Below, piece after piece: positions 9,001 to 34,543 of a stretch of 41,677 bases of DNA (its first letter is position 1; every line of letters begins with the position of its first letter). Made by a program: the position numbers and the translations under genes. The DNA is taken from NCBI GenBank assembly GCA_021772955.1, contig JAJFKZ010000045.1, forward strand, positions 1 through 41,677. The letters are read 5' to 3'. This stretch comes from Gammaproteobacteria bacterium (GTDB lineage: Bacteria; Pseudomonadota; Gammaproteobacteria; Xanthomonadales; Wenzhouxiangellaceae). The notes beneath the pieces are model-generated. The model did no database searches and was not told the origin of the DNA. It saw only the letters and a program-made list of their open reading frames with translations.

Positions 9001-12000
9001 TTATTCGAAGCCGTCGGCAAACACGAAGTCTTCTGGATCTTCAAATTCGACTCGCGCCGGGCTGCCATTGCTGATGGCAGCGTCAACGGTGCCATCACCG
9101 TTCAGATCCAGCTCGGCGCTGATCAGCACTTCCTCGATCACCGTGTTGCTGAGGCTGGTGACAAACAGGCCCTGGCTGTCGGTTTGGCCGCTGCTTTGCG
9201 CCAACTGCGCCGACCCGGTGCTGGCCAGGGTGACTTCGACGGAGCTGACCGGGGCAGCGTCACGATTGACCAGTTGCAGTGCGACAATGGCGCTATCAAT
9301 GCCGTCGGCGAGCACATTGTGTCGATCCACACTGAGTGCTGTCAGTGGGTCGTCGATGGCGACCACGCCGTCGCCGGGCACAATGGCAACTACGATGGGA
9401 TCATGATCGGCAGCGCGAAATGCATCCGGTTGATAAAAGTCAGCCGGTTTCGCCACACCACCGCTGAGGTTTTCCTCGTTGTAGTCAAACGCGGCGAGCT
9501 CATCGCTGTTGCTGTGCCAGTGGGTGGCATCCAGCACTTGCAGTGCCAGTGACGGGCTGGCAATGGCATGATCCAGCGCGCCAGCCTGGCCAACAAAGGT
9601 GAATGAGTAGGCCTCATCGGTGGCGTCGAATTGCTGGCCGATATCAACCAAGCCGTCGTCGGTCAGCGCCCGGATCGGATCTTCCTGGCTGTAGCTGTTG
9701 AGATCACCGAGGATGATATAGTCCGGATCGCCGCTGGCGGTGGGGTCATTGGCCAGCCAATCGGCCAGCGCTTCGGCCGCTGCGCTGCGGCTGGCATTGA
9801 AGCAGGCCTGACCGTCACCCTGATCGGCATCGTCGCCACTGGCACCACCGCAGCCCTTGGACTTGAGGTGGTTGATGTCAACAGTGAGTACTTCACCGCT
9901 GGCAGTGTGCTGGAAAGTCTGCGCCAGCGAGGGCCGGTTGCGACTGCTGTCAAAACGTGGATCCACACTGGCATCGAGAATGGCAAAGTTGCCTACCGGT
10001 GTCACGGCGGCCGGCTGGTAGATCAACGCGACCTTGATGGCATCATTGCCGATGGTGCCGGTAGCGATGAAGGACCAGGTGTCCGGGTTGCTGGCAGCAT
10101 TGAGGGCATCGATCAGCGCTTGCAAGGAAGCACTGGCGTTGTTCTCAATCTCCACCAGGCCGATGATGTCGGCATCCATGGCGAGAATGGTGGCAACCAG
10201 CTTGTCGGTCTGACGCTGCAGCTCGCTGGTGGAGTCGGCACCGCGACAACCGGAACTGGCCGTCGGTCCACAAATTGATCCGCTGCCATCCAGCGTGCTG
10301 AAGAAATTCAGCACGTTCAATGCCGCCACACGCAGTGGTGTTTGCGGCAACTGTGGAGCATTCTGACGCGGATTGGCGGTTTCAGCAAACACCAGCGGCG
10401 CAGTCGGTTCGATCTTGTAGTCGCCGAAAGTGAAGTTCATCACTCCACTGAGACTACCGAGCTGGTAGCCGTTGCGCACCGGGTTGCCGGCGTTGAGCGG
10501 GTTGCTGTCATCGCGACCGACCACAAACGGTTGCACACTGCTGCCATTGCGGCCGTCATCAACAATAATGCGATTCAGGTCATTCAGTGCTTGCTGGTTG
10601 CTGGCATCAACACCTGGCAGAACGGTCTGCGTGGGCTGTAACAGGCGACCATCAGACAGCGTGAATTCACCGAAACTCACCAGATCGAATTGGTCAGTTA
10701 CAGTCAGCGTCTGAGGCAGCACCACCGCCATGCCCTCGACAGTTTCCAGTGCAGTTATGTCGGCCAGTGGTAGCGTAATGGTGGCAGGAGTCACGGTCTG
10801 CCCGCTGCTACAGATGGTGATGTCACTGACGTTATTGATCTGGGTCAGCTCGAAAAATTCGGTGACCTGACCACGTACGCGCACGACATCGCCGGGCGAT
10901 ACATCCAGGCTGCTGTTGAACACAAAGATGCCTTCCGAGGTCAGCGCATCGGCATCGGTGTCGGCATCTTCTTCCTGCAGGAACAAGCCGCCTAGTTCAC
11001 CAGGCTGCAAATTGGCAAAATCTCCCACCACGACTGCTTCCACATCGACCACCGTGCCATCCGCCAATGGGGTAGCGAAGGCGTTGCCCTGGATGGCATG
11101 GATCAGCGTGGTCGGCGCACCGCAGGCAAACGGCGGTGGCGGGTTGCAATCGGAAGGTTGTCCGGGCGAGACCACGGCTTCGCACCAGGTCGCGGACAGG
11201 TCTTCGGAAGTTTCGTCGTGGCCCTGGGCACCGTTGCCACCGGCTTTGAGTTCATTGCCTTCGCTGAGGTCATCGCGCTGGAAGCTGTTGCCAATGGAGT
11301 GGCCCGCGGCAGCGACCACGTCCTGACTGGCAATGGCGGTGTCGGCCAGGTAACTGCTGGCATCGGCATCGGCATCCGGGCCATCGATGCTGATACCGGT
11401 CTTGTCCACCGCTTCAGCCTGATCGCCCCAGATCGCGTAATCCAGATCGGTGACCAGATCATTGACGCCGTCCCAGGTAAACAAAATCACCATTTCACCA
11501 CCATTACTCAGCCCGCCCTGGCTATTGATCGAACCGGGCAAGGCCGCACGCATATCGGGAATGGCATCAGCTGTTGAGTCGTCTTCAAACAGCTCATAGT
11601 CCGGCACAAAGCCGTATTCGGTGTTGAAGGCCGCCGAGCCAGATAGCGATACGGTCTGGTATGCGCCAGCAGCAATGCTCGCACCATCCGGAAAGCGTGC
11701 ACTGAAATCACCGGAGCCACCGCCACCGGTGCTGGTCAGATCGCCGGTAACGATGTTGTAGTAAAACACGTTGGCAGCGGTTGCGTCGGTGATGTAGACA
11801 TTGCTCAAATCCACCGACACGGGATTAGGATTGTGGATTTCGATGAATTCACCAGCGCTTGGTGTAACGACTATCTCGCTCAGCAGCAAAGGCAATGGGC
11901 CAGCGCCAGTGTTGCCACAATCGGCGCTGTGGCTGCCGATACCAGTAAAGGTATCCAGGGCAAAGCTTTCCCACTCCAACGATGGATCAAAGACGTCATC

Positions 12001-12519
12001 AGGATTGCTGTCACCGGCACAAACGGAAAAAATCCGGCGGAGGGTTTCGTTTTGGGTGCCGACGCCATTGGCAGACCATTCGTTACCGGGGTCAAAGCCT
12101 GCCTGACCAATGCTGTCGATGACCACACCGTTGTGGCGCAACACTACCGCATCATCGCCGTTGAAGGCCAGGCTGCCAGAAGTTTGATCGGCAGAGTTGA
12201 CCAGTGCTGCGGTAGCAAGAGGGTTGGCCACGACAAAAACCGACGTGTTCTGGACGTTGCCATTCAAGGCAATGGTCGCCGTTGCTACCGGGTTGCCATT
12301 GAAAAATATCTGCACGTCGTAGTTGGCGGCAGCAAGATCGATATCGCTACCGGTGCCATTGAAGATTTCCAGCGCTTTGTTGCTACCGGAGCCTTCGATG
12401 TATTCGGACAGAAACAGATCGCTGGCCTGGGCATGAACAGGGCCTGATACCAACAGTAACAGACAGTATGTGGCAAGGCAGAAACCTGGATGGGCGCGAA
12501 GGCGTTGTGTCAATGTCAT
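9001..12519 (-). CDS. exeM: ExeM/NucH-family extracellular nuclease
   Basis: About 1172 residues. A signal peptide ends in VHAQA. A first lamin-tail domain begins SDLFLSEYIEG, and a second begins LLLSEIVVTPSAGEFIEIHN. An OB-fold (GVVVRVRGQV-like strands after TVVDVEAVVVGDF) is followed by an endonuclease/exonuclease/phosphatase domain with its metal and catalytic blocks: LRVAALNVLNFF, GLVEIENN, DINHLKS, ILGDLNS and RAADHDPIV. A Big-1-type immunoglobulin-like domain precedes the end. ExeM relatives degrade extracellular DNA and act in biofilm remodelling and phosphate scavenging. Unlike many family members there is no C-terminal membrane helix. The chain ends FVFADGFE. The frame is open to 12600, but a -10 at 12612-12617 would leave too short a leader, so I use the ATG at 12519 (12528 is the alternative). 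Confidence 0.9.
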   Translation of the reverse strand: MTLTQRLRAHPGFCLATYCLLLLVSGPVHAQASDLFLSEYIEGSGSNKALEIFNGTGSDIDLAAANYDVQIFFNGNPVATATIALNGNVQNTSVFVVANPLATAALVNSADQTSGSLAFNGDDAVVLRHNGVVIDSIGQAGFDPGNEWSANGVGTQNETLRRIFSVCAGDSNPDDVFDPSLEWESFALDTFTGIGSHSADCGNTGAGPLPLLLSEIVVTPSAGEFIEIHNPNPVSVDLSNVYITDATAANVFYYNIVTGDLTSTGGGGSGDFSARFPDGASIAAGAYQTVSLSGSAAFNTEYGFVPDYELFEDDSTADAIPDMRAALPGSINSQGGLSNGGEMVILFTWDGVNDLVTDLDYAIWGDQAEAVDKTGISIDGPDADADASSYLADTAIASQDVVAAAGHSIGNSFQRDDLSEGNELKAGGNGAQGHDETSEDLSATWCEAVVSPGQPSDCNPPPPFACGAPTTLIHAIQGNAFATPLADGTVVDVEAVVVGDFANLQPGELGGLFLQEEDADTDADALTSEGIFVFNSSLDVSPGDVVRVRGQVTEFFELTQINNVSDITICSSGQTVTPATITLPLADITALETVEGMAVVLPQTLTVTDQFDLVSFGEFTLSDGRLLQPTQTVLPGVDASNQQALNDLNRIIVDDGRNGSSVQPFVVGRDDSNPLNAGNPVRNGYQLGSLSGVMNFTFGDYKIEPTAPLVFAETANPRQNAPQLPQTPLRVAALNVLNFFSTLDGSGSICGPTASSGCRGADSTSELQRQTDKLVATILAMDADIIGLVEIENNASASLQALIDALNAASNPDTWSFIATGTIGNDAIKVALIYQPAAVTPVGNFAILDASVDPRFDSSRNRPSLAQTFQHTASGEVLTVDINHLKSKGCGGASGDDADQGDGQACFNASRSAAAEALADWLANDPTASGDPDYIILGDLNSYSQEDPIRALTDDGLVDIGQQFDATDEAYSFTFVGQAGALDHAIASPSLALQVLDATHWHSNSDELAAFDYNEENLSGGVAKPADFYQPDAFRAADHDPIVVAIVPGDGVVAIDDPLTALSVDRHNVLADGIDSAIVALQLVNRDAAPVSSVEVTLASTGSAQLAQSSGQTDSQGLFVTSLSNTVIEEVLISAELDLNGDGTVDAAISNGSPARVEFEDPEDFVFADGFE

Positions 12520-12611
12520 GATGAGCATGCTCTTGGTGAGTGGCGGAAAACGGTATTTACTGTGTTGCCAATTCGGCATTGGCCGAAAAGGGCAGCGCAC
12601 AGCGCCGACAC

Positions 12612-25484: not shown

Positions 25485-26753
25485 ATGACAGCAAAAAACT
25501 TTCTCTACGCACAATCAGGTGGGGTAACGCCGGTCATCAACGCCAGCGCCGCCGGCATCATGCATACCGCTCGCCAGTACCCGGAATTAGGCGCAGTGTA
25601 TGCCGCCCGCAATGGCATTATCGGGGTATTGCGCGAAGAGTTGTTCGATACCACGTCCATGCTTGATGAGCAGGTCATGGCGTTACGCCATACCCCGGGC
25701 GGGACGTTTGGTTCCTGTCGCTACAAGCTCAAGGGGGTTGCCGAAAGCCGCGCCGAATACGAGCGCCTGATCGAGGTGTTCAAGGCACACGACATCGGTA
25801 TTTTTTTCTACAACGGCGGTGGTGACTCGGCCGATACGGCTTTCAAGATTTCACAAATGGGAACGCAACTGGGCTTTCCGATCCAGTGCATTGGTGTTCC
25901 CAAGACCATCGACAATGATCTGCCGATCACCGACGTCTGTCCGGGTTTCCCCACCGTGGCCAAATACGTCGCCATTGCCACCATGGAAGCCAGTCTGGAT
26001 GTCATGTCCATGTCGGCCAGCTCTACCAAGGTGTTTATCCTCGAAGTGATGGGCCGCCATGCTGGCTGGATAGCCGCAGCAGCTGGCCTGGCGCAGCGGC
26101 AATCGGGTGATGCGCCGCAGCTGATTTTGTTTCCGGAAATCAGCTTTGACCAGCCGGCCTTTTTGCAGCGTGTTCAGCGCAGCGTGACCGAGCATGGCTA
26201 TTGCACCGTGGTGGTGTCCGAGGGGGTGCGTGATGACACCGGCAAGTTTCTTTCCGACAGCGGTGTGCGTGATGCTTTCGGACACGCGCAGTTGGGCGGT
26301 GTGGCACCGCGAATTGCCGCGCTGATCAAAGGCGAACTTGGGCACAAGTGCCATTGGGCGGTAGCCGATTATCTGCAGCGCTCGGCGCGCCATATCGCTT
26401 CACGCGTGGATGTGGAGCAGGCCTGGGCGGTAGGCCGGGCGGCAGTGGAGTTTGCCGCCGCCGGCGAGTCTGGAGTGATGCCGGTGATCGAGCGGGTCAG
26501 CAGCAAGCCCTATCAATGGCGAATTGCCAAAGCCCAGCTCAGCGCGATGGCCAATCAGGAAAAGCTGATGCCACGCACTTTCATCGATGCATCCGGTTTT
26601 GCCATTACCCAGGCTTGCCGGGATTATCTGGCGCCGTTGATCGCGGGTGAAGATTATCCCCCGTATCGGGACGACGGCTTACCCGACTACCTGCGCCCCG
26701 GACAATGCCCGCTGCTGCCACAGAAGCTGGCAAAGTGGACGAAAACCGAATGA
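25485..26753 (+). CDS. pfp: Pyrophosphate-dependent 6-phosphofructokinase
   Basis: A 422-residue PFK-family enzyme. Residues 111-115 read GGGDS, with the Asp that blocks ATP and marks PPi use, where ATP enzymes have GGDGS. Residues 139-145 read PKTIDND, whose Lys140 is the second PPi marker. MGRHAGWIAAAAGLA follows as the fructose-6-phosphate block. It carries out the reversible phosphorylation of fructose 6-phosphate with PPi and can replace both PFK and fructose bisphosphatase. No ATP-PFK gene is in the window. No clear terminator was seen in the AT-rich DNA after it. Confidence 0.95.
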   Translation: MTAKNFLYAQSGGVTPVINASAAGIMHTARQYPELGAVYAARNGIIGVLREELFDTTSMLDEQVMALRHTPGGTFGSCRYKLKGVAESRAEYERLIEVFKAHDIGIFFYNGGGDSADTAFKISQMGTQLGFPIQCIGVPKTIDNDLPITDVCPGFPTVAKYVAIATMEASLDVMSMSASSTKVFILEVMGRHAGWIAAAAGLAQRQSGDAPQLILFPEISFDQPAFLQRVQRSVTEHGYCTVVVSEGVRDDTGKFLSDSGVRDAFGHAQLGGVAPRIAALIKGELGHKCHWAVADYLQRSARHIASRVDVEQAWAVGRAAVEFAAAGESGVMPVIERVSSKPYQWRIAKAQLSAMANQEKLMPRTFIDASGFAITQACRDYLAPLIAGEDYPPYRDDGLPDYLRPGQCPLLPQKLAKWTKTE

Positions 26754-26803
26754 ATTAATCATCACATAAACAATCATAATGTGAAATTATTTTTCATAAA
26801 CGC

Positions 26804-26832
26804 TTGCATTCTAATTCTTTTGTCGACATAAT
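26804..26832 (+). promoter_or_regulatory. Sigma70-type promoter of the surface-fibre gene cluster
   Basis: TTGCAT (26804-26809), a 17-bp spacer, then CATAAT (26827-26832), preceded by a strongly AT-rich stretch (26757-26800) that could act as an UP element. Transcription would begin near 26839, about 218 bases before the first gene of the cluster. This and the two entries below are the content of the ~300-bp gap after PPi-PFK. Confidence 0.6.
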
Positions 26833-26848
26833 GCGCGCACACAAAGAA

Positions 26849-26876
26849 CGTGCCCACAACAAACATTGGGGGCACG
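26849..26876 (+). promoter_or_regulatory. Leader stem-loop in the long 5' UTR of the fibre cluster
   Basis: CGTGCCC (26849-26855) pairs with GGGCACG (26870-26876) around a 14-base loop. It begins about ten bases after the predicted transcription start. Weaker dyads follow downstream (for example GCGGA/TCCGC near 26994-27014). The leader is long and structured, but no known riboswitch class is recognised. Confidence 0.4.
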
Positions 26877-26879
26877 AAC

Positions 26880-26966
26880 ATGGATTTTGGTTGGTTCTGT
26901 TCTTATGTTTTACTCGTCTTGACAACCAGTATGACGTTAGATCAGAGGAATTCTCTCACCTGCTGA
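26880..26966 (+). CDS. Possible 28-residue leader peptide
   Basis: An ATG-initiated small frame within the leader encodes a short peptide (MDFGWFCSYVLLVLTTSM and ten more residues) with a hydrophobic centre, preceded by a G-rich stretch at 26868-26872 that could serve as a ribosome site. It could be a leader peptide or a chance ORF. There is no homology I recognise. Confidence 0.2.
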   Translation: MDFGWFCSYVLLVLTTSMTLDQRNSLTC

Positions 26967-27056
26967 CGAATAATTCATGATTTTGTTGGTCTGCGGAAGT
27001 TATTTGTCTCCGCGGGTGATTCGTTTGAATGATCGAAACTTATACGAGGCTATGTT

Positions 27057-27668
27057 ATGAAGTTGAATATGAAACAAACCCTGGCCGCAGCCCTGCTGCT
27101 GTCTACCTTGATTGCCGGCGGAAGCGCGCAGGCACAGATTGCTGTCGATGTGGACATCGACGTCGGTTCCATCACCATCTTGTATGCATTGACCGATATC
27201 AGTGTTGGTATCGACGACACCGCATTGGGTCAGTTGTTCTCACCAGCGGCTGGTTGTAGCAGTGCTACCACAGGCAGTGAATGTGATGAAGGCACAGCCA
27301 CGGGCAACGCTACCGTGAATTCCGGTGCGCTGGAATTTGCCGGTAGCATCAATCCGGCTGCACTGGCCAACGTCAATGCCGTTTCACTGGTGCTGCAGGA
27401 TGTCTGGGCCGTGCGTGCGATTGGCGGTACCAGCACCAACACCACGGTTGCGGCCACCCTCAGTGGCAACACCACCTTGACTGGTCCGAATTCTTCACAG
27501 ATTAACGTCAGCGGCATCACCGTGCCTGGCGCGACATTTGCTGATCCGGGTCTGGGCACACCTGTTTCAGGTAATGTCAACCTGACGCTGGATCTCAGCG
27601 GCGTGACCTCCGACGGTCTGCATGACGGCGGTGCGCTGCTGTATACCATCGAAGTCAGCAACACCTGA
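27057..27668 (+). CDS. Putative major fibre subunit of an atypical chaperone-usher system
   Basis: A 203-residue exported protein. The signal peptide ends in GGSAQAQ. The mature chain starts with alternating hydrophobic residues (QIAVDVDIDVGSITI), the pattern of an N-terminal donor strand. It then becomes a Thr/Gly/Asn/Val-rich beta chain with one likely disulfide (the two Cys in the AGCSSATTGSEC region) and ends in a strand, ALLYTIEVSNT. I recognise no named pilin family. First position, its own promoter, a good GAGG ribosome site seven bases before the ATG, and the hairpin right after its stop all suggest the abundant structural subunit. Subunit identity is inference. Confidence 0.6.
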   Translation: MKLNMKQTLAAALLLSTLIAGGSAQAQIAVDVDIDVGSITILYALTDISVGIDDTALGQLFSPAAGCSSATTGSECDEGTATGNATVNSGALEFAGSINPAALANVNAVSLVLQDVWAVRAIGGTSTNTTVAATLSGNTTLTGPNSSQINVSGITVPGATFADPGLGTPVSGNVNLTLDLSGVTSDGLHDGGALLYTIEVSNT

Positions 27669-27695
27669 GCGCTTTGCGCACAGGCTAAGCGTGTG

Positions 27696-27718
27696 GCACC
27701 GACCGACCTGGTTGGTGC
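27696..27718 (+). promoter_or_regulatory. Intercistronic hairpin after the first subunit gene
   Basis: GCACCGACC (27696-27704) pairs with GGTTGGTGC (27710-27718), nine pairs including one G-U, with a 5-base loop. It lies 27 bp after the first subunit gene's stop and 38 bp before the next start, with no U-tract. In pilus operons such structures protect the major-subunit mRNA and reduce downstream expression. Confidence 0.5.
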
Positions 27719-27756
27719 TGCCCACTTCGGCCACACCACTGTCCGCTGATCACAGC

Positions 27757-28350
27757 ATGACTCAATCGCTACAGCAACTGCTGACTTTGCTATTGCTGGG
27801 TATTGCTAGCGTCAGCGTCTCGCAGGCACAATCCGACAGCGCCTTTTTCAATGTCGGCAACAGCCGCATCGAGGAAAGTAGTTCGCCGCAGGCACTGCAA
27901 TTACGTTTGCTGGACCAACCAAATATCAGGCTGGCAGCAGTGAGCACACAAGAGCTCGCTGGTAGCCCCGAGCAGCGTCTAGGCGCTGCGTCCGGCCTGG
28001 CACACGTGCAAGGTCGCGGCCTGAGTTTTCAGGGCCAGCTGAACATACCCGAATTGACCCCCTACATTTACCGGGAACTACCCATGCTGTGGGAAGTTCG
28101 CGTGCCACCCGGCCGACATTTGGGTAACAGCCAGGAGCCGGTGCAAGTACAATGGCAGCCTGACAATCGCTCTGCTACGGGCAGGGCTGCTGTCGGCCAG
28201 CTACGCGCCACGCCCTGGATACAGCAACGTCGCACCGAGCGCGATGGCTGGGAAGTTCTGACTGGCGGAGTGCGCCTGCAGGTACCGCTGGAAATGCTGG
28301 AAGCCGGCGCCATCAATGGCCGCCTGCTGATTGACTTGCGTGTCTTTTGA
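27757..28350 (+). CDS. Putative minor fibre subunit or adaptor
   Basis: A 197-residue exported protein with signal peptide MTQSLQQLLTLLLLGIASVSVSQAQ removed after AQA/Q. The mature part is predicted beta-rich, has no cysteines, and ends GRLLIDLRVF. Alternating hydrophobics with a terminal aromatic residue resemble the C-terminal strand of chaperone-bound pilus subunits. A frame extending upstream to 27622 lacks a credible signal sequence, so the ATG at 27757 is chosen. No family is recognised. It lies between the subunit candidate and the chaperone gene, whose start follows by 11 bp. Confidence 0.6.
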   Translation: MTQSLQQLLTLLLLGIASVSVSQAQSDSAFFNVGNSRIEESSSPQALQLRLLDQPNIRLAAVSTQELAGSPEQRLGAASGLAHVQGRGLSFQGQLNIPELTPYIYRELPMLWEVRVPPGRHLGNSQEPVQVQWQPDNRSATGRAAVGQLRATPWIQQRRTERDGWEVLTGGVRLQVPLEMLEAGAINGRLLIDLRVF

Positions 28351-28361
28351 GGCCATACGGC

Positions 28362-29267
28362 ATGATCAACAAAGATTTCTTGAAGCAACAGCAGCAGTAT
28401 TTGAGCATGGGGCTTTTCACCCTGCTCATGTTGTTTTGCATGTCCGGCATGGCCCAGATCGGGGTATCACCGCAGCTGCTGGTCGTGAATCTGGACGAAC
28501 AGCCACGCGGGCACAGTTTCCGCTTGCTGAACATGTCCGAGCGTGACGTCAGCGTCGAAGTGTCGCTGGCCAATTGGGAAATGGACAGCAACAACCAGCC
28601 ACAAATCATCGCCCCGACCATCGACTCTCTGGATCAGTGGCTGATCGTCAATCCGCTGCGTTTCGAGGTGCCGGCCGGGCAGTCACAAACCGTACGCCTG
28701 GCGTTTCGTCCGAATCAACAACTGACCGCAGGCGAATACCGAGCCATGCTGTACTTCACCCAGATTCTGGGTCCGGAAGCGCAGCAAGTCGGCATGTTTC
28801 GCTCGCAGTTTCGCATCGGCGCCGCGATCTATGCACAGGTCGGCCAGGCCAGACAGGAGCTCAGCGCCAGTCCCATGCGCGTCTTGCCGATGGCAGCAGA
28901 TGCAGCTAGTGGGGGCACTCAACTGGCGGTGGACATAGACAATCGCGGCAACCGTCATGAGCGCATGCATGGCCAATGGAGCCTGTGGCGTGGCGATGCC
29001 TACCCGGGGGCAAAAAACACGCAGTTGGACGCGAGCCTGAATCGGCCGGATGCACAATTGCCCGAAGGCATGCTGGCTGCTGGCACGCTGGCCAATACCC
29101 CGGTGCTGCCGGGCACAGCACGTACCGTGCTGACGTCGTTGCAATGGCCGGACGAGCTGCCTGCGGAGGTGGTACTGGATATCAACGGCCAGCTAGGTAA
29201 CCTGACACTGGAGCAGTCGATCAGCAACATTCGGCCGAGTGCCGGGGCTGCTGCACAGCCCCGATAA
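28362..29267 (+). CDS. Divergent PapD-like periplasmic chaperone
   Basis: About 301 residues. A long signal peptide ends MSGMAQ. The first immunoglobulin-like domain follows (IGVSPQLLVVNLDEQPRGHSFRLLNMSERDVSVEVSLANW, then LRFEVPAGQSQTVRLAF and EYRAMLYFTQI, and a G1-type strand SQFRIGAAIYAQVG), then a second beta domain. The strand order and the PAGQSQTVRL block match the pilus chaperone N-domain. The Arg and Lys that anchor subunit C-termini in classical PapD/FimC chaperones are not apparent at the expected places, so it is outside the classical group. GAGG nine bases before the ATG at 28362 supports this start; a TTG at 28347 was not used. At ~300 residues it is longer than PapD (~240). Confidence 0.7.
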   Translation: MINKDFLKQQQQYLSMGLFTLLMLFCMSGMAQIGVSPQLLVVNLDEQPRGHSFRLLNMSERDVSVEVSLANWEMDSNNQPQIIAPTIDSLDQWLIVNPLRFEVPAGQSQTVRLAFRPNQQLTAGEYRAMLYFTQILGPEAQQVGMFRSQFRIGAAIYAQVGQARQELSASPMRVLPMAADAASGGTQLAVDIDNRGNRHERMHGQWSLWRGDAYPGAKNTQLDASLNRPDAQLPEGMLAAGTLANTPVLPGTARTVLTSLQWPDELPAEVVLDINGQLGNLTLEQSISNIRPSAGAAAQPR

Positions 29268-29295
29268 GCCGGACGGGTGAGCGCGCAGCAACAGC

Positions 29296-31866
29296 ATGAA
29301 AACAGCACGCCCATGGGCCCGCCCCGGCAGCTTGGTCATTGGCCTTGGGATGCTGCTGCAGATAAACGCATTGGCTGCACCATTGCAGACCAGCACCAGC
29401 TGGTCCGGTGCCAGTCCGGAACTGTTCATTGTGCCGCTGTTAATCAACGGCAATGAGGAGCGTGGCGAGCTGATTCTAGCTCTGGAGCAGAGCACCGGCG
29501 CGGAGTATATCGAACTGGCAGCTTTCGTTGAAGCGCTGAACATCGGCATGACCAGCGATGGTGATACGTTGCTGCTGAACACCCCCATCGGAACCGCTCA
29601 GATCAGTACGGATGCGCAGCGCGAGCTGGATGGCCGTAACATGGTATTGCTGTCGGAGCTGGCCGAGCGACTGGCCAGCCCGATGCACTTTGATCGCCAG
29701 ATTTTTGCGGTTACAGTCAATCCCGCGTGGTCATTGCAACAACCATTGAACCCGGCTGAAATCGTGCAGCCACAAGTGCAAGCCGACATCAGTGCCAGCA
29801 ACGCCAACGTCTCATTTTTGCGCAATGAAATCCTGCACCGGGATGACCGCAATGGTGCCACCACTTCCATCATCACTGACACTGGCGGCAGTCTGGCCGG
29901 GGGCTACTGGCAGGCGCGGGTGCGCGATTACATAGAATCGGATCCATTCATCGAGGACTATGCCTGGGTGCGCGATGGCAACAATGCACGTTATTTTCTG
30001 GGCAATCAGACCACCTCGCTGAACACCTTGCTGGGTGGCTTTGAATTCACCGGCGCACAGATGGCATTCACTAATCGTGATATCGGGCTGTTTACCAAAG
30101 GCCTGGGACAAAGCCAGTTCATCGCCAATCAGCGCGGCTCGATTCGTACCTTTATCGGCGAGGGGCCGCCCGGTGGTAGTGCCCAGTTGCGCATTGAGAA
30201 CGTGGTGACGGCTGTGGATACGATCTCACTGGATGGTCGTTTTGAATTTCGTGATGTGGAATTGCCCAGTGGTGGCCTGGTGCAGATCGAGGTCTGGCTG
30301 TTTGAGCGCGGTAATGAAGGCTCGCCGGTGGATGTGCAGGACTTCAGTGGCTTCAACACCAACCAGACACTGCCAGCGCGGACCATGCTGTGGCGTGGTG
30401 GCATCGGTGTGGACGAAAACCTGATCGAGTCCAATCGTGAACAGAACGATCTGGCGGCCTTCATGGACACCCAGTACGCGCTGACTGATCAGCTTACCGC
30501 ACAGGCCATTTATCAGCGCCAGAACAACGTTGATACCGGACTCGCCGCCCTGCATGCCAATTTTGACAGTCTGGGATTTGTCTCCGCACAAGTGGCCCAG
30601 GCCGATGGCGAGACCGGCTGGCGAGTGGAACTGGATAACCTGCAGCAGCATGTATTCTGGCGCGGCTTTGCTCAACATCAGCCACGTGGCTGGCAAGGCA
30701 ATGAAGACAAACTCGATGACGTGTTCGCAGAAGCAGGTTATCGATTCAATGAGCGCTGGCAGGCGTCGCTGATTGGTCGTGATTTTGATACCGACGAGCG
30801 CGAATTTGATTTTTTACTGCCCGGATTGGAATGGCGCCCCAATCTGCAGTGGATGTTGCGCGCCAGACCCGATTTCGATGGTGATTACACGGTACAAGCT
30901 TTTTGGCGACCGAATAACAGCAATGATCTCAGTGGCATTTTCAACGAGGATGAAAGCAGTCTGCAGTGGGTACATCAACTCAGTGGCCGCGACAATCTGT
31001 TCTTGCAAGCTGTGGATCGTGACCGTACCGGTGAGCGACTGGCGTTGACCTGGCGTCGTGCCGCACTGGGCACTCGTAGTCTGGGCTGGGCCGTCGGAGC
31101 CTTGACCGGAAACGGCAGTATCGGCTTTCTGCTGCAAGCAGATTACGAATTTACGCCTGGACTGCGGGCTCGTGCGGAAGCGCTGCGCGATCCATTTTCA
31201 GCGGCCTTCGAGCAATCAGCCGATACCGTGTTCACGCTCAGTCTGGTGGCCGATTTCAATCTTGCCGGTGGTATTTCCCGCGGCGCCTTCCGTCGGGCAT
31301 TGGTGGATCGAGGCGTGATAGCCGGCCAGGTGAATTTACCCGAGGCCGCTGGTTTGCAAGGCTTCTCGCTGGCGGAAGTTGCCATCATGGTGGACGGACA
31401 AGTGCGCACCCGCACTGAAGCTGACGGCAGCTTCACCATCAATTTCATGCCGCCGGGCTTGTACCGGGTGAAGCTGGACCTGGATGGCCTGCCATTGGAG
31501 CTGCACCCGCAAAAGGACCAGTTCTGGGTCAAGGTCAGCGCCGGTGCCGTGAGTCGGGTCGATTTTGCCACCGAGCTGCGGCTCGGGTTTGCCGGCCAGG
31601 TGCAGGGCGCAGGCGGCTGTGGACTTGCCGAACAGGCACTGGAGATACTGGACGCTGCCGGCACAGTGGTTGCGGTGCTGCGCAGCAACCGCTTCGGTTT
31701 TTATCGGGTCGATGGTTTGGCACCGGGCCGTTATCAGGTCAGATTGAGTTCGGCAGCCAAAGCACATAGCAAGGCACATACCATGGTAGAGCTGCGCAAC
31801 AGCTTTGTTTTCGGTCAGACTATCAGTACTGGACTAGCCTGTCCGGTCACGGAGGACGAACAATGA
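29296..31866 (+). CDS. Usher-like outer-membrane protein with C-terminal regulatory-like domains
   Basis: An 856-residue exported protein in the size range of fimbrial ushers. After the signal peptide an N-terminal module (FIVPLLINGNEERGELILAL and GAEYIELAAFVEAL) resembles the usher periplasmic domain. A long Asn/Gln/Trp/aromatic beta-strand series, typical of a 24-strand barrel, follows. Within it, residues near 300-350 (AQLRIENVVTAVDTISL and FEFRDVELPSGGLVQIEVW) fit the usher plug. Two carboxypeptidase-regulatory-like domains end the chain (TEADGSFTINFMPPGLYRV and SNRFGFYRVDGLAPGRYQV), the second with a likely disulfide. It starts 28 bp after the chaperone gene. The similarity to classical FimD-type ushers is distant; a different barrel type is possible. 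Confidence 0.65.
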   Translation: MKTARPWARPGSLVIGLGMLLQINALAAPLQTSTSWSGASPELFIVPLLINGNEERGELILALEQSTGAEYIELAAFVEALNIGMTSDGDTLLLNTPIGTAQISTDAQRELDGRNMVLLSELAERLASPMHFDRQIFAVTVNPAWSLQQPLNPAEIVQPQVQADISASNANVSFLRNEILHRDDRNGATTSIITDTGGSLAGGYWQARVRDYIESDPFIEDYAWVRDGNNARYFLGNQTTSLNTLLGGFEFTGAQMAFTNRDIGLFTKGLGQSQFIANQRGSIRTFIGEGPPGGSAQLRIENVVTAVDTISLDGRFEFRDVELPSGGLVQIEVWLFERGNEGSPVDVQDFSGFNTNQTLPARTMLWRGGIGVDENLIESNREQNDLAAFMDTQYALTDQLTAQAIYQRQNNVDTGLAALHANFDSLGFVSAQVAQADGETGWRVELDNLQQHVFWRGFAQHQPRGWQGNEDKLDDVFAEAGYRFNERWQASLIGRDFDTDEREFDFLLPGLEWRPNLQWMLRARPDFDGDYTVQAFWRPNNSNDLSGIFNEDESSLQWVHQLSGRDNLFLQAVDRDRTGERLALTWRRAALGTRSLGWAVGALTGNGSIGFLLQADYEFTPGLRARAEALRDPFSAAFEQSADTVFTLSLVADFNLAGGISRGAFRRALVDRGVIAGQVNLPEAAGLQGFSLAEVAIMVDGQVRTRTEADGSFTINFMPPGLYRVKLDLDGLPLELHPQKDQFWVKVSAGAVSRVDFATELRLGFAGQVQGAGGCGLAEQALEILDAAGTVVAVLRSNRFGFYRVDGLAPGRYQVRLSSAAKAHSKAHTMVELRNSFVFGQTISTGLACPVTEDEQ

Positions 31867-33707
31867 TGAACACGCATCAAGACATCACAATGAGCCTGAC
31901 CATTGGCCTTGCATTGGCAGCGCTCTGGTGCAGTGTCGCCGTGGCGCAACCGCTGCCCAACGGCAGTTTCGAAAACGGCCTGAACGGTTGGACGCCAGCT
32001 TTTCAGGGCCGGGTCGAAAGCCTGCTGGCCAGCGCCTTTGTGGGCAATCTGCCCACCGTCCCGGATGGACAGCGGGTGGCCTTGCTCAGTACCGGGCCGG
32101 GCAACGTTGGCGGTGGCAATGTCAATGTAGACAATAATGGAGTCAATGACCTCGATGTCACTACGCTGGATACTACGCTGGTGTTCGGTTTTGCGCCGGC
32201 GGTGTTGCGCTTTGACTGGGCCTTTGCCACTTCCGAACAGAATCAGCCAAACAACTTTGACGATACGTTCGGTCTGCTGCTGGGTGGTCAATTCGTTTTT
32301 ACCGGTAGTGTCAATAAACCCGGTGGCGTATCGCCGTTCCCGGATGCGCCGCCGGCACAACTGCCGGGTATTGTCATCAACAGTCCCGGGGTAACCAACG
32401 GCTCCAGTTACATCGATGGTATTTCGATGTTCAGCAGCGCTTGCGTTGATATTCCCGGCGCGGTCAACGGCAACAACGCAATAATTGCCAGGTTCTTTGT
32501 CGCCGATCAGGCCGACAATGGTTTCGACTCCGGCTTGATCATTGACAACGTGCGCTTTGACCGCAGTTGCGCAGCGCCTGGCCAGGTCACTCTGCAGCAG
32601 ATCACCCTGACCGCCAAAGAGTTGCCGATCGAAGTCAAGGGCAGTGGCCTGTTGCAGCGCTTTATCGCCAGCAAACGGCCGGTGTCCAGCAGTGACGGTT
32701 CCGTGGTGGCCTTTTTCTCCAATGCCAACCTGACCGGTGACAATCCGTTTTTCATCGAGCAGGTGTACACGATTGAAAATGGCGCGTTCCGGCGCGAGAC
32801 CGCATTCAGCAACAGTTGCATACCTCCGGCTCCGTGCCAGGTCGTGCAGAATCTGGATATCGGCCGTAGCGGCCGCTGGCTCGCGGTGGCGGCCCGCGCC
32901 ACTGACGGTGACAACCTGGAGATTTACCGCATCGACCGCAACAACGGTAATGTGCAACAGCTCACCAACACATCCGCTTGTGACAACACTTCACCATCCA
33001 TCAACGATGACGGCACAGGCATCGCCTTTCTCAGCACCTGCCCGGGATTTTTGAACAATGCTGGCAGCAATCCAAAAGTGGTGATCTGGAACAATGGCAG
33101 CTTCATCAACAGCACCGGCGCTGCGTCTTGTCGTGATTATGCCCCGGCCATCAATGGCAACAACAACCGTCGCTATACCGCCTTTGCCTCGAACTGCAAC
33201 CACGGCGGGCTGAATTCCGCTGGCGTCATGCGTGTGTTCCGGTTCGATCGCAATAACGGTAATTTTGCACTGGTGGACAATCCGAGTCCGGCCGGCAGTA
33301 ATGTGGTTGATATCAATCGTGACGGTAGTCTGGTAGCTTACATTGGCGTTGAGAACAACGGCAATCTTACGGCATTCCGGCGTGATATGGGCCAGTCGCA
33401 GGCCATACTGGTCGGAGCAAGCGATCCATTGTCACTGGCCATCGGGGTACGACTGCTTGACGAAAACGATGGCAATGATATGGCCATCGAGCGTCTGGAT
33501 TTGCTCGCGAATGGGGATTCTACGCTGTGGCATGTGGACGTGACCACGCAGATCAGCACGGCGATTGGTGCCGGTAGCGAAGCTGGCGGATTTACCATCG
33601 CCCGTGACGGTAATACACGCTGGATTCATTTCAGCACGTCAGATGACCTGGTCGGCCAGAATCCAGAACAGAATCTCGAAATTTTTGCTGCGAGGATAGA
33701 ACCATGA
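31863..33707 (+). CDS. Secreted protein with N-terminal binding-type domain and C-terminal TolB-like propeller (candidate tip adhesin)
   Basis: A 614-residue exported protein. After the signal peptide (ending SVAVAQ), residues ~30-235 form a jelly-roll-like module. It opens LPNGSFENGLNGWTPAFQG, as in CBM-like and DUF642-like extracellular domains. Residues ~260-610 show repeated blades of the PD40/TolB type (SSDGSVVAFFSNANL, SRSGRWLAVAAR-like, SINDDGTGIAFLSTC, NRDGSLVAYIGVE). The ATG overlaps the usher stop as ATGA. A very large non-subunit secreted protein coupled to the usher is the usual place for a tip adhesin, hence the proposal. A second ATG follows immediately at 31866. Ligand and attachment are unknown. 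Confidence 0.65.
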   Translation: MMNTHQDITMSLTIGLALAALWCSVAVAQPLPNGSFENGLNGWTPAFQGRVESLLASAFVGNLPTVPDGQRVALLSTGPGNVGGGNVNVDNNGVNDLDVTTLDTTLVFGFAPAVLRFDWAFATSEQNQPNNFDDTFGLLLGGQFVFTGSVNKPGGVSPFPDAPPAQLPGIVINSPGVTNGSSYIDGISMFSSACVDIPGAVNGNNAIIARFFVADQADNGFDSGLIIDNVRFDRSCAAPGQVTLQQITLTAKELPIEVKGSGLLQRFIASKRPVSSSDGSVVAFFSNANLTGDNPFFIEQVYTIENGAFRRETAFSNSCIPPAPCQVVQNLDIGRSGRWLAVAARATDGDNLEIYRIDRNNGNVQQLTNTSACDNTSPSINDDGTGIAFLSTCPGFLNNAGSNPKVVIWNNGSFINSTGAASCRDYAPAINGNNNRRYTAFASNCNHGGLNSAGVMRVFRFDRNNGNFALVDNPSPAGSNVVDINRDGSLVAYIGVENNGNLTAFRRDMGQSQAILVGASDPLSLAIGVRLLDENDGNDMAIERLDLLANGDSTLWHVDVTTQISTAIGAGSEAGGFTIARDGNTRWIHFSTSDDLVGQNPEQNLEIFAARIEP

Positions 33708-34543
33708 GTCGCTACCAGCAATTGCCCGTGAGCTCTGGCAGGGGCTGCGCACAGTGGCTGTGCATGGTATTGGCTGTGCTCGGCATGAACCTGCACGCGC
33801 AGGAGCGCCCGGCCACAACTTTCGCCGACGATGTGTTTGGCTATCAGATTGCAACCAGCGGCAGTTGCCCGACGCAGTGGGTAGACAGCAGCGCCGGTCA
33901 GGCCCTGATACTGCAAGCAGCCGGGACGGAAATACCGGCCAGTGACGATGGCGGCGCCGCGTTGACGCTGGATTGGGCGTTTGAATTCTACGGCCAATTG
34001 CAGCAGCAACTGGTGGTCTCCAGCAATGGCTATGTGGGATTTGCAGCAGACTTGCAGGCCGAAAACGGCGGCGATTACAGCAACGACTGCCCGTTGCCGG
34101 CGGTGCCGGACAACAATGCCAGCGCGCTGGGAAGAATTGCGGTCTGGCATGATGATTTGCAGGGCAGCGCTGGCAGCATCACGGTAGCGCAGTTTGATGA
34201 TTGTCCCAGGCCAGGTCGCCTGCCGGGTGATGCCTGTAGCGTCATCAGTTGGCAGAACTGGGGCGTGCTGGCAGGTATTTCCGCTGGGCTGGACTTCCAG
34301 CTGCTGCTGTATCGGCGCGCTCGTGACGTGGTGATGCAATACGGCTCAGACTTGCCGGATAGCAGTTCAGTGAGCATCGGCATACAGCACCCTGCGTTGC
34401 TGACCGGCGTCAATCTGGCCTGTAACGTAACCGCCATTGTGCCCGACAACAGTGCACTGTGCATCGAGCATCCATTGCCACCGGATACACTGCTCAGTGA
34501 TGGCATGGAAGTCCGCGACCTGCAGCGCGAAACGGACTTGTAA
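33704..34543 (+). CDS. Secreted NIDO/lectin-like protein of the fibre cluster
   Basis: A 279-residue exported protein whose ATG overlaps the previous stop as ATGA. After the signal peptide (ending NLHAQ), the chain has DWAFEFYGQLQQQLVVSSNGYVGF. This is the pattern F.F.FYG....v.vSSNGyv.F found in extracellular nidogen-like and pre-peptidase domains. Six cysteines lie in the mature part and probably pair. The end reads PPDTLLSDGMEVRDL, close to the xFxDGFE terminus of the ExeM-like protein in this window but followed by extra residues. It may be a second adhesin or a capping protein. No function is established. Confidence 0.65.
   Translation: MSRYQQLPVSSGRGCAQWLCMVLAVLGMNLHAQERPATTFADDVFGYQIATSGSCPTQWVDSSAGQALILQAAGTEIPASDDGGAALTLDWAFEFYGQLQQQLVVSSNGYVGFAADLQAENGGDYSNDCPLPAVPDNNASALGRIAVWHDDLQGSAGSITVAQFDDCPRPGRLPGDACSVISWQNWGVLAGISAGLDFQLLLYRRARDVVMQYGSDLPDSSSVSIGIQHPALLTGVNLACNVTAIVPDNSALCIEHPLPPDTLLSDGMEVRDLQRETDL

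Follow-up and report, generated by a model that had tools for sequence, protein, structure and literature searches.

A six-gene chaperone-usher locus, probably of a new branch, in a gammaproteobacterial draft genome

Gene layout and recurrence of the locus

The window, by which we mean the whole 41,677-nucleotide stretch of DNA analysed here, is contig 116 of a draft genome of 2.6 Mb that is 88% complete, and ORF analysis places within it six consecutive open reading frames on the + strand between positions 27057 and 34543. Their arrangement is that of a chaperone-usher (CU) system, in which fibre subunits are passed by a periplasmic chaperone to a gate in the outer membrane known as the usher. 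The six genes are:

P1, 27057-27668, + strand, 203 aa: probable major pilin subunit
P2, 27757-28350, + strand, 197 aa: probable second (minor) subunit
P3, 28347-29267 from a TTG start (306 aa), with ATG 28362 the likelier start, + strand: periplasmic chaperone, non-classical PapD type
P4, 29296-31866, + strand, 856 aa: outer-membrane usher
P5, 31863-33707, + strand, 614 aa: secreted protein with a jelly-roll/CBM-like module and a TolB-like (PD40) propeller
P6, 33704-34543, + strand, 279 aa: secreted single-domain accessory protein

With P3 taken from TTG 28347, the intervals between successive genes from P1 to P6 are 88, -4, 28, -4 and -4 nt, the 4-nt overlaps falling at P2/P3, P4/P5 and P5/P6; the start of P5 overlaps the stop of P4 in the sequence ATGA. 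All six proteins begin with a hydrophobic, signal-like N-terminus as judged by eye, and the run of six consecutive genes described by the initial annotation is confirmed. The neighbour upstream is a gene of the PFK family (PF00365, 25485-26753), followed by a 303-bp gap before P1 which leaves room for a promoter. The proposal that the locus has a promoter of its own nevertheless gained no support from a consensus scan of 26700-27120, in which no sigma-70 match was found on the + strand and the one match, on the - strand, compares with 0.8 expected by chance. A scan for a terminator-like site downstream of P6 found none, and a plasmid search gave no match.

Full-length relatives of P4 occur in 5 of 101 close relatives. 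Further relatives were found in 10 of the 299 genomes of the order, in 6/369 of the class (one matching in the C-terminal part alone) and in 4/398 of the phylum (one being a weak C-terminal match only), and a single-sequence scan of genome contigs returned the same-genus relative only. Family profiles recovered the complete set of six, in unchanged order, from six other genomes (L022, L024, L025, L039, L041 and L042), and the proposed order of subunit, second subunit, chaperone, usher and two secreted proteins is therefore both present here and recurrent elsewhere. P1 to P4 are found at L040 and L044, as well as at L023 and L045 where the contig ends; P1, P3 and P4 are found at L046 and at L043, where another ORF takes the place of P2; and at L047 the gene accompanying P3 and P4 is a subunit-like one of another kind. 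In L133, which belongs to a second class of the phylum, P5 and P6 are missing and the locus consists of a P1-like pair, P3, one P2-like gene and P4. The P1-P4 core spans several families and a second class and, since it is kept while P5 and P6 vary among loci, we take the subunit(s), chaperone and usher to be the conserved core and P5-P6 to be a variable addition.

The usher and its chaperone

P4 is an usher by homology, as measured against controls. In profile-profile comparison it matches archaic-type ushers along its full length (E=1.2e-20, 714 columns), classical ushers with FimD at 2.1e-11 and alternative ushers with EcpC at 1.4e-10, whereas the TonB receptor and reversed usher controls reach E=0.0087 and 0.009 to 0.08, respectively. 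Taken by themselves, the barrel and the C-terminal part match archaic ushers at E=1.2e-10 and E=1.1e-8; the N-domain by itself gave no significant profile match, and is predicted to be folded in an AlphaFold model. This model, built from a 14-row alignment (pLDDT 80, pTM 0.62), has an N-domain at ~42-141, six barrel strands, a small beta domain at ~286-349 in the position of the plug, the remaining barrel up to ~655 and two C-terminal domains at ~690-845. DSSP counts 24-26 strand segments in the modelled barrel; known ushers have 24 barrel strands. When the model was used as a Foldseek query, ranks 1-18 were occupied by FimD or PapC structures only, and VIA-align superposes it on the FimD pore with Z 16.9 over 372 residues at 4.7 A, against Z <=13.8 for other large barrels. 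The usher N-domain and plug to which the initial annotation had tied its reading were looked for by both profile and structure, and the outcome was the full-length profile match described above and, in the model, a plug that interrupts the barrel behind its sixth strand. At the C-terminus, the two carboxypeptidase-regulatory-like domains that had been proposed from the sequence were found (CarboxypepD_reg, PF13620, E=1.1e-11); they align with the usual C-terminal domains of ushers and therefore represent no extra part.

None of the 14 ushers of the family is matched by a Pfam usher family up to E 0.1, TcfC (PF16967) and CooC_C (PF15976) likewise being absent at that threshold, and their only Pfam matches are to CarboxypepD_reg and similar C-terminal domains. 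As a control, ushers of the archaic and alternative groups, taken from this phylum, do match their own Pfam families, with TcfC and CooC_C present in the alternative set. A profile hmmsearch against the PDB with the usher alignments returned CarboxypepD_reg-like proteins only, which is why the usher link needed profile-profile comparison; the divergence of the machine's parts is such that current family models overlook the usher. The host draft genome contains no PF00577 or TcfC usher. The idea that P4 is an unrelated, TonB-like outer-membrane barrel with carboxypeptidase-regulatory domains and coincidental neighbours could draw on the exclusively CarboxypepD_reg-type Pfam matches, but it is already contradicted by the TonB control (E=0.0087 versus 1e-20 for ushers), by a fold ranking topped by FimD and PapC and by a PapD-like chaperone that is co-conserved with P4, and we give it practically no weight.

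Sequence comparison makes P3 a non-classical member of the PapD-type periplasmic chaperones. Its profile matches archaic chaperones at E=2.4e-16, alternative ones at 3.6e-10 and classical ones at 6.9e-8, against 0.10-0.23 for reversed controls (0.14 for archaic), and PapD_N is matched by 8/14 of the family chaperones, at best with 2.8e-5. Chaperones of the archaic and alternative groups share an anchor Arg (Arg89) as well as an invariant Pro, and further have one Arg and one Tyr in domain 2; the classical anchors are normally lacking in non-classical chaperones (PMC4654587). We located the anchor positions in the EcpB sequence and transferred them via the profile alignment, and the correspondences given here are therefore alignment-based; P3 residue numbers count from TTG 28347. 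Aligned in this way, Pro103 would correspond to Pro60 of EcpB (conserved 14/14), Arg132 to Arg89 of both CsuC and EcpB (13/14, the exception being the shortened L046 protein) and Arg206 to Arg148 of EcpB, the second anchor Arg (13/13). The position of the anchor Tyr (Tyr196 in CsuC, Tyr169 in EcpB) appears to be occupied by Pro252 in P3, and by P, A, S or T in 13/13 members with domain 2; the site lies within a conserved xVLPG motif, reading PVLPG in P3 and YVLPG in the archaic L077 and L079. The lack of classical basic anchors reported by the initial annotation is borne out, but since these anchors are absent from non-classical chaperones generally, their absence from P3 is not novel by itself. 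The unusual trait of P3, as far as the alignment indicates, is instead that the anchor Tyr of non-classical chaperones has been lost.

One locus departs from this pattern. The chaperone homologue at L046:6025-6516 has just 163 aa and stops after domain 1, without the anchor Arg; P1 is present and the usher beside the short chaperone is enlarged (967 aa). The short protein may be a one-domain chaperone, a truncation or the product of a frameshift.

Candidate subunits and secreted proteins

P1 is the probable major pilin subunit and P2 a probable second, minor one. Members of the P1 family are encoded at 13 loci, and L133 has a further two copies, whilst P2 adjoins P1 in 11 loci and the usher in L133. 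The mature N-terminus of P1 carries an alternating-hydrophobic stretch, AQIAVDVDIDVGS in the window and present in most of the 13 members, which is a candidate donor strand and is followed by a conserved ITILY segment. In the AlphaFold model of P1 (pLDDT 71.5, about 90 in the core) an Ig-like beta-sandwich begins at residue 39, and before this residue the N-terminus is free and unstructured. No Foldseek match passes 0.001, CU pilins making up most of the top rows, and the top VIA-align match is a subunit of the archaic Csu pilus, CsuA/B (Z 6.3 over 109 residues, below the tool's 'distinctive' level), with mostly CU pilins behind it. This modelled resemblance to CU pilins is suggestive, not proof. 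Neither P1 nor P2 has a Pfam match, no sequence-profile link between P1 and known pilins was found, and the profile link between P2 and P1 is weak (E=9e-4 versus 0.32 reversed). For P1, P2, P6 and the barrel of P4, nothing could be learned from searches with single sequences (phmmer against the PDB, Pfam and NCBIfam).

The spore coat-type subunit family of archaic systems, SCPU (PF05229), was not found by Pfam in P1 or P2 nor elsewhere in the host draft genome. A profile match between P1 and SCPU at E=3.8e-5 was rejected as an artefact, the value becoming E=0.36 once signal peptides were trimmed. At L047, a different subunit-like protein (11367-11909, - strand; NTCTLS...PVGTYTYTVTATL) sits in the P1 position and adjoins a chaperone and an usher that are more diverged than any others in the family; it has no convincing Pfam match, and its match to SCPU is weak (E=0.0012, with signal peptides included).

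P5 has a CBM/jelly-roll-like module at its N-terminus together with PD40/TolB-like repeats, and PD40 and CBM_4_9-like matches were obtained in family members. The initial annotation made this jelly-roll and propeller protein the terminal one of the locus and a candidate adhesin; the domain make-up stands, but the position does not, P5 being the fifth gene (31863-33707) and the sixth encoding a different domain. Nor is the tip-adhesin role supported: profile comparison of P5 and P6 with Pfam and the PDB revealed no pilin domain, the PDB giving TolB and other weak fragments only, and for this reason the term 'tip adhesin' is unproven. We regard P5 as a candidate accessory surface protein or adhesin. 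Among 96 relatives, full-length P5 occurs in 5/5 usher-bearing genomes and in 0/91 of the others, a co-occurrence with a chance of 1/C(96,5) = 1.6e-8 when kinship is left uncorrected, two of the five belonging to one genus.

P6 would be an accessory secreted protein. Its family is found at 7 of the loci and has no Pfam or NCBIfam match; the domain itself occurs in 67/200 genomes of the order, often within secreted proteins of ~1150 aa, and is apparently an unnamed domain family. By eye, these larger carriers (L171-L180) look like trypsin-like endopeptidases. P6 bears a C-terminal [F/L]xDG[F/M]E-like motif, and its homologues in L024, L025, L039, L041 and L042 end in FADGFE, FANGFE or SDGME variants. 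Elsewhere in the window (9001-12600, - strand), a protein of 1199 aa that resembles extracellular nucleases (LTD, Exo_endo_phos, Big_1) has a C-terminal end that is exactly FADGFE. Secreted proteins might share such an end as a tag for their sorting or anchoring; we found no mention of it in the literature searched.

Place among chaperone-usher groups and proposed assembly

CU pili are divided into three groups (alternative, classical and archaic) and six clades (PMC9452303). We built usher and chaperone trees with comparison sets drawn from the window's phylum only, omitting L084 from the usher tree as a wrong-frame ORF, and in both the new family forms a separate clade at bootstrap 100, the paired support values being 100/99 for the ushers (with the comparison sets also a single clade each: archaic 99/99, alternative 100/98, classical 100/100) and 100/97 for the chaperones. 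The suggestion that the parts define an undescribed CU branch has survived all of the tests run, namely usher profile and structure, gene-order recurrence and the two trees, of which the usher features and the recurrence had been named as possible refutations by the initial annotation itself, and this is probably a new branch, the fourth among CU systems, a placing that is well supported but sampling-dependent. At identities of 10-17% the deep placement in the trees is fragile, and by profiles the clade leans towards the archaic side, by trees towards the alternative one.

With classical systems (beta, gamma, kappa and pi; for example type 1 Fim pili) the family shares the usher layout of N-domain, plug within the barrel and two C-terminal domains, as well as the chaperone-subunit logic, but it has neither the classical basic anchor pair nor a FimA-type subunit, its usher is not found by PF00577 and its clade is separate. 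The alternative (alpha) group, which includes the E. coli common pilus Ecp and CFA/I, shares the non-classical chaperone signature, and a CarboxypepD_reg-like C-terminal usher domain is also seen, weakly, in EcpC. It is possible, if doubtful, that the new family is a deep sister lineage of this group, best counted as its extension. The alternative set is its nearest neighbour in the chaperone tree (98/93), the two families of ushers lie on the same side of a 99/97 branch, and a pili-assembly chaperone and CfaA topped the list, non-significantly, when a first 5-member chaperone alignment was compared with the PDB. However, the sister position hinges on the location of the root, the profiles of both P3 and P4 are closer to archaic than to alternative proteins, the TcfC and CooC_C domains are absent and P3 appears to lack the anchor Tyr of EcpB. 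The new locus also differs in its two upstream subunit genes, single chaperone and distal proteins, and holds no EcpA-type subunit by profile.

We consider it unlikely that the family belongs, in diverged form, to the archaic (sigma) group, exemplified by Acinetobacter Csu, and was pushed out of it by long branches. Such an origin would fit the closest profile matches of both usher and chaperone, a csu-like order of subunits, chaperone, usher and distal protein in the adhesin position, the apparent sharing of the conserved Pro, the anchor Arg (Arg89 in CsuC), the second anchor Arg and the VLPG motif, the resemblance of PVLPG to the YVLPG of some archaic chaperones and the first rank of CsuA/B for P1; a single clade of archaic and new ushers is also not rejected (p-AU 0.078). 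Against this, 16 archaic-like ushers from across the phylum form one clade that excludes the new family (99/99), and the chaperone tree sets the family beside the alternative group. The operon is also without an SCPU subunit, the residue corresponding to Tyr196 seems to have become Pro, Ala, Ser or Thr, and there is no Pfam usher match, be it to PF00577 or PapC_C. The distal genes here encode a jelly-roll and propeller protein and a free secreted domain, where archaic systems have a two-domain tip of the CsuE type.

We hold with good confidence that the locus is a CU machine of a previously unrecognised clade, in which P1 would be polymerised to a thin fibre and P5 and P6 would be accessory. 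That this clade is a fourth major group, equal in rank to the classical, alternative and archaic ones and marked by its own subunit families, Tyr-less anchoring and a jelly-roll/propeller protein replacing the two-domain tip adhesin, is a bolder claim whose chances we judge to be about even. The open-licence papers searched describe no propeller tip adhesin and no new clade of ushers, nor any usher that carries carboxypeptidase-regulatory domains. A branch without any Pfam usher signature would mean that CU machines are more numerous than current annotation shows, both among environmental Gammaproteobacteria and in one or more further classes.

Taken as a CU machine, the six genes probably build thin surface fibres. 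In the periplasm, P3 would take up P1 as well as P2 and cap their incomplete Ig-like folds, the C-terminus of the subunit probably being anchored in the interdomain cleft of P3 via Arg132 and Arg206. P4, as a plugged outer-membrane pore, would receive the chaperone-subunit complexes at its N-domain and polymerise P1 by donor-strand exchange, with the alternating-hydrophobic N-terminus of P1 acting as the donor strand, to give a thin surface fibre in which P2 is a minor subunit. P5 and P6 would be translationally coupled accessory secreted proteins, plausibly acting alongside the fibre on the cell surface. With half of the non-classical subunit anchor seemingly kept and half lost, the evolution of chaperone handover becomes testable by mutagenesis.

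Alternatively, P3 and P4 might serve as a chaperone and pore that export P5 and P6, with no pilus polymerised and P1 and P2 being something else. Translational coupling of P5 and P6 to the usher and the co-occurrence of P5 with it would suit such a pathway, but P5 and P6 are missing beside the usher in L040, L043, L044, L046, L047 and L133, where P1, P3 and P4 stay (L047 having the other subunit-like gene in place of P1). The most constant partner is P1, and neither P5 nor P6 has a recognisable pilin domain to be capped by a chaperone; we find this explanation very improbable and retain that of a fibre-building machine. As a separate observation on the two secreted proteins, G003 carries several copies of P5 and two or more of P6 on contigs C339 and C224, away from its usher contig, which suggests an expansion of the P5-P6 module.
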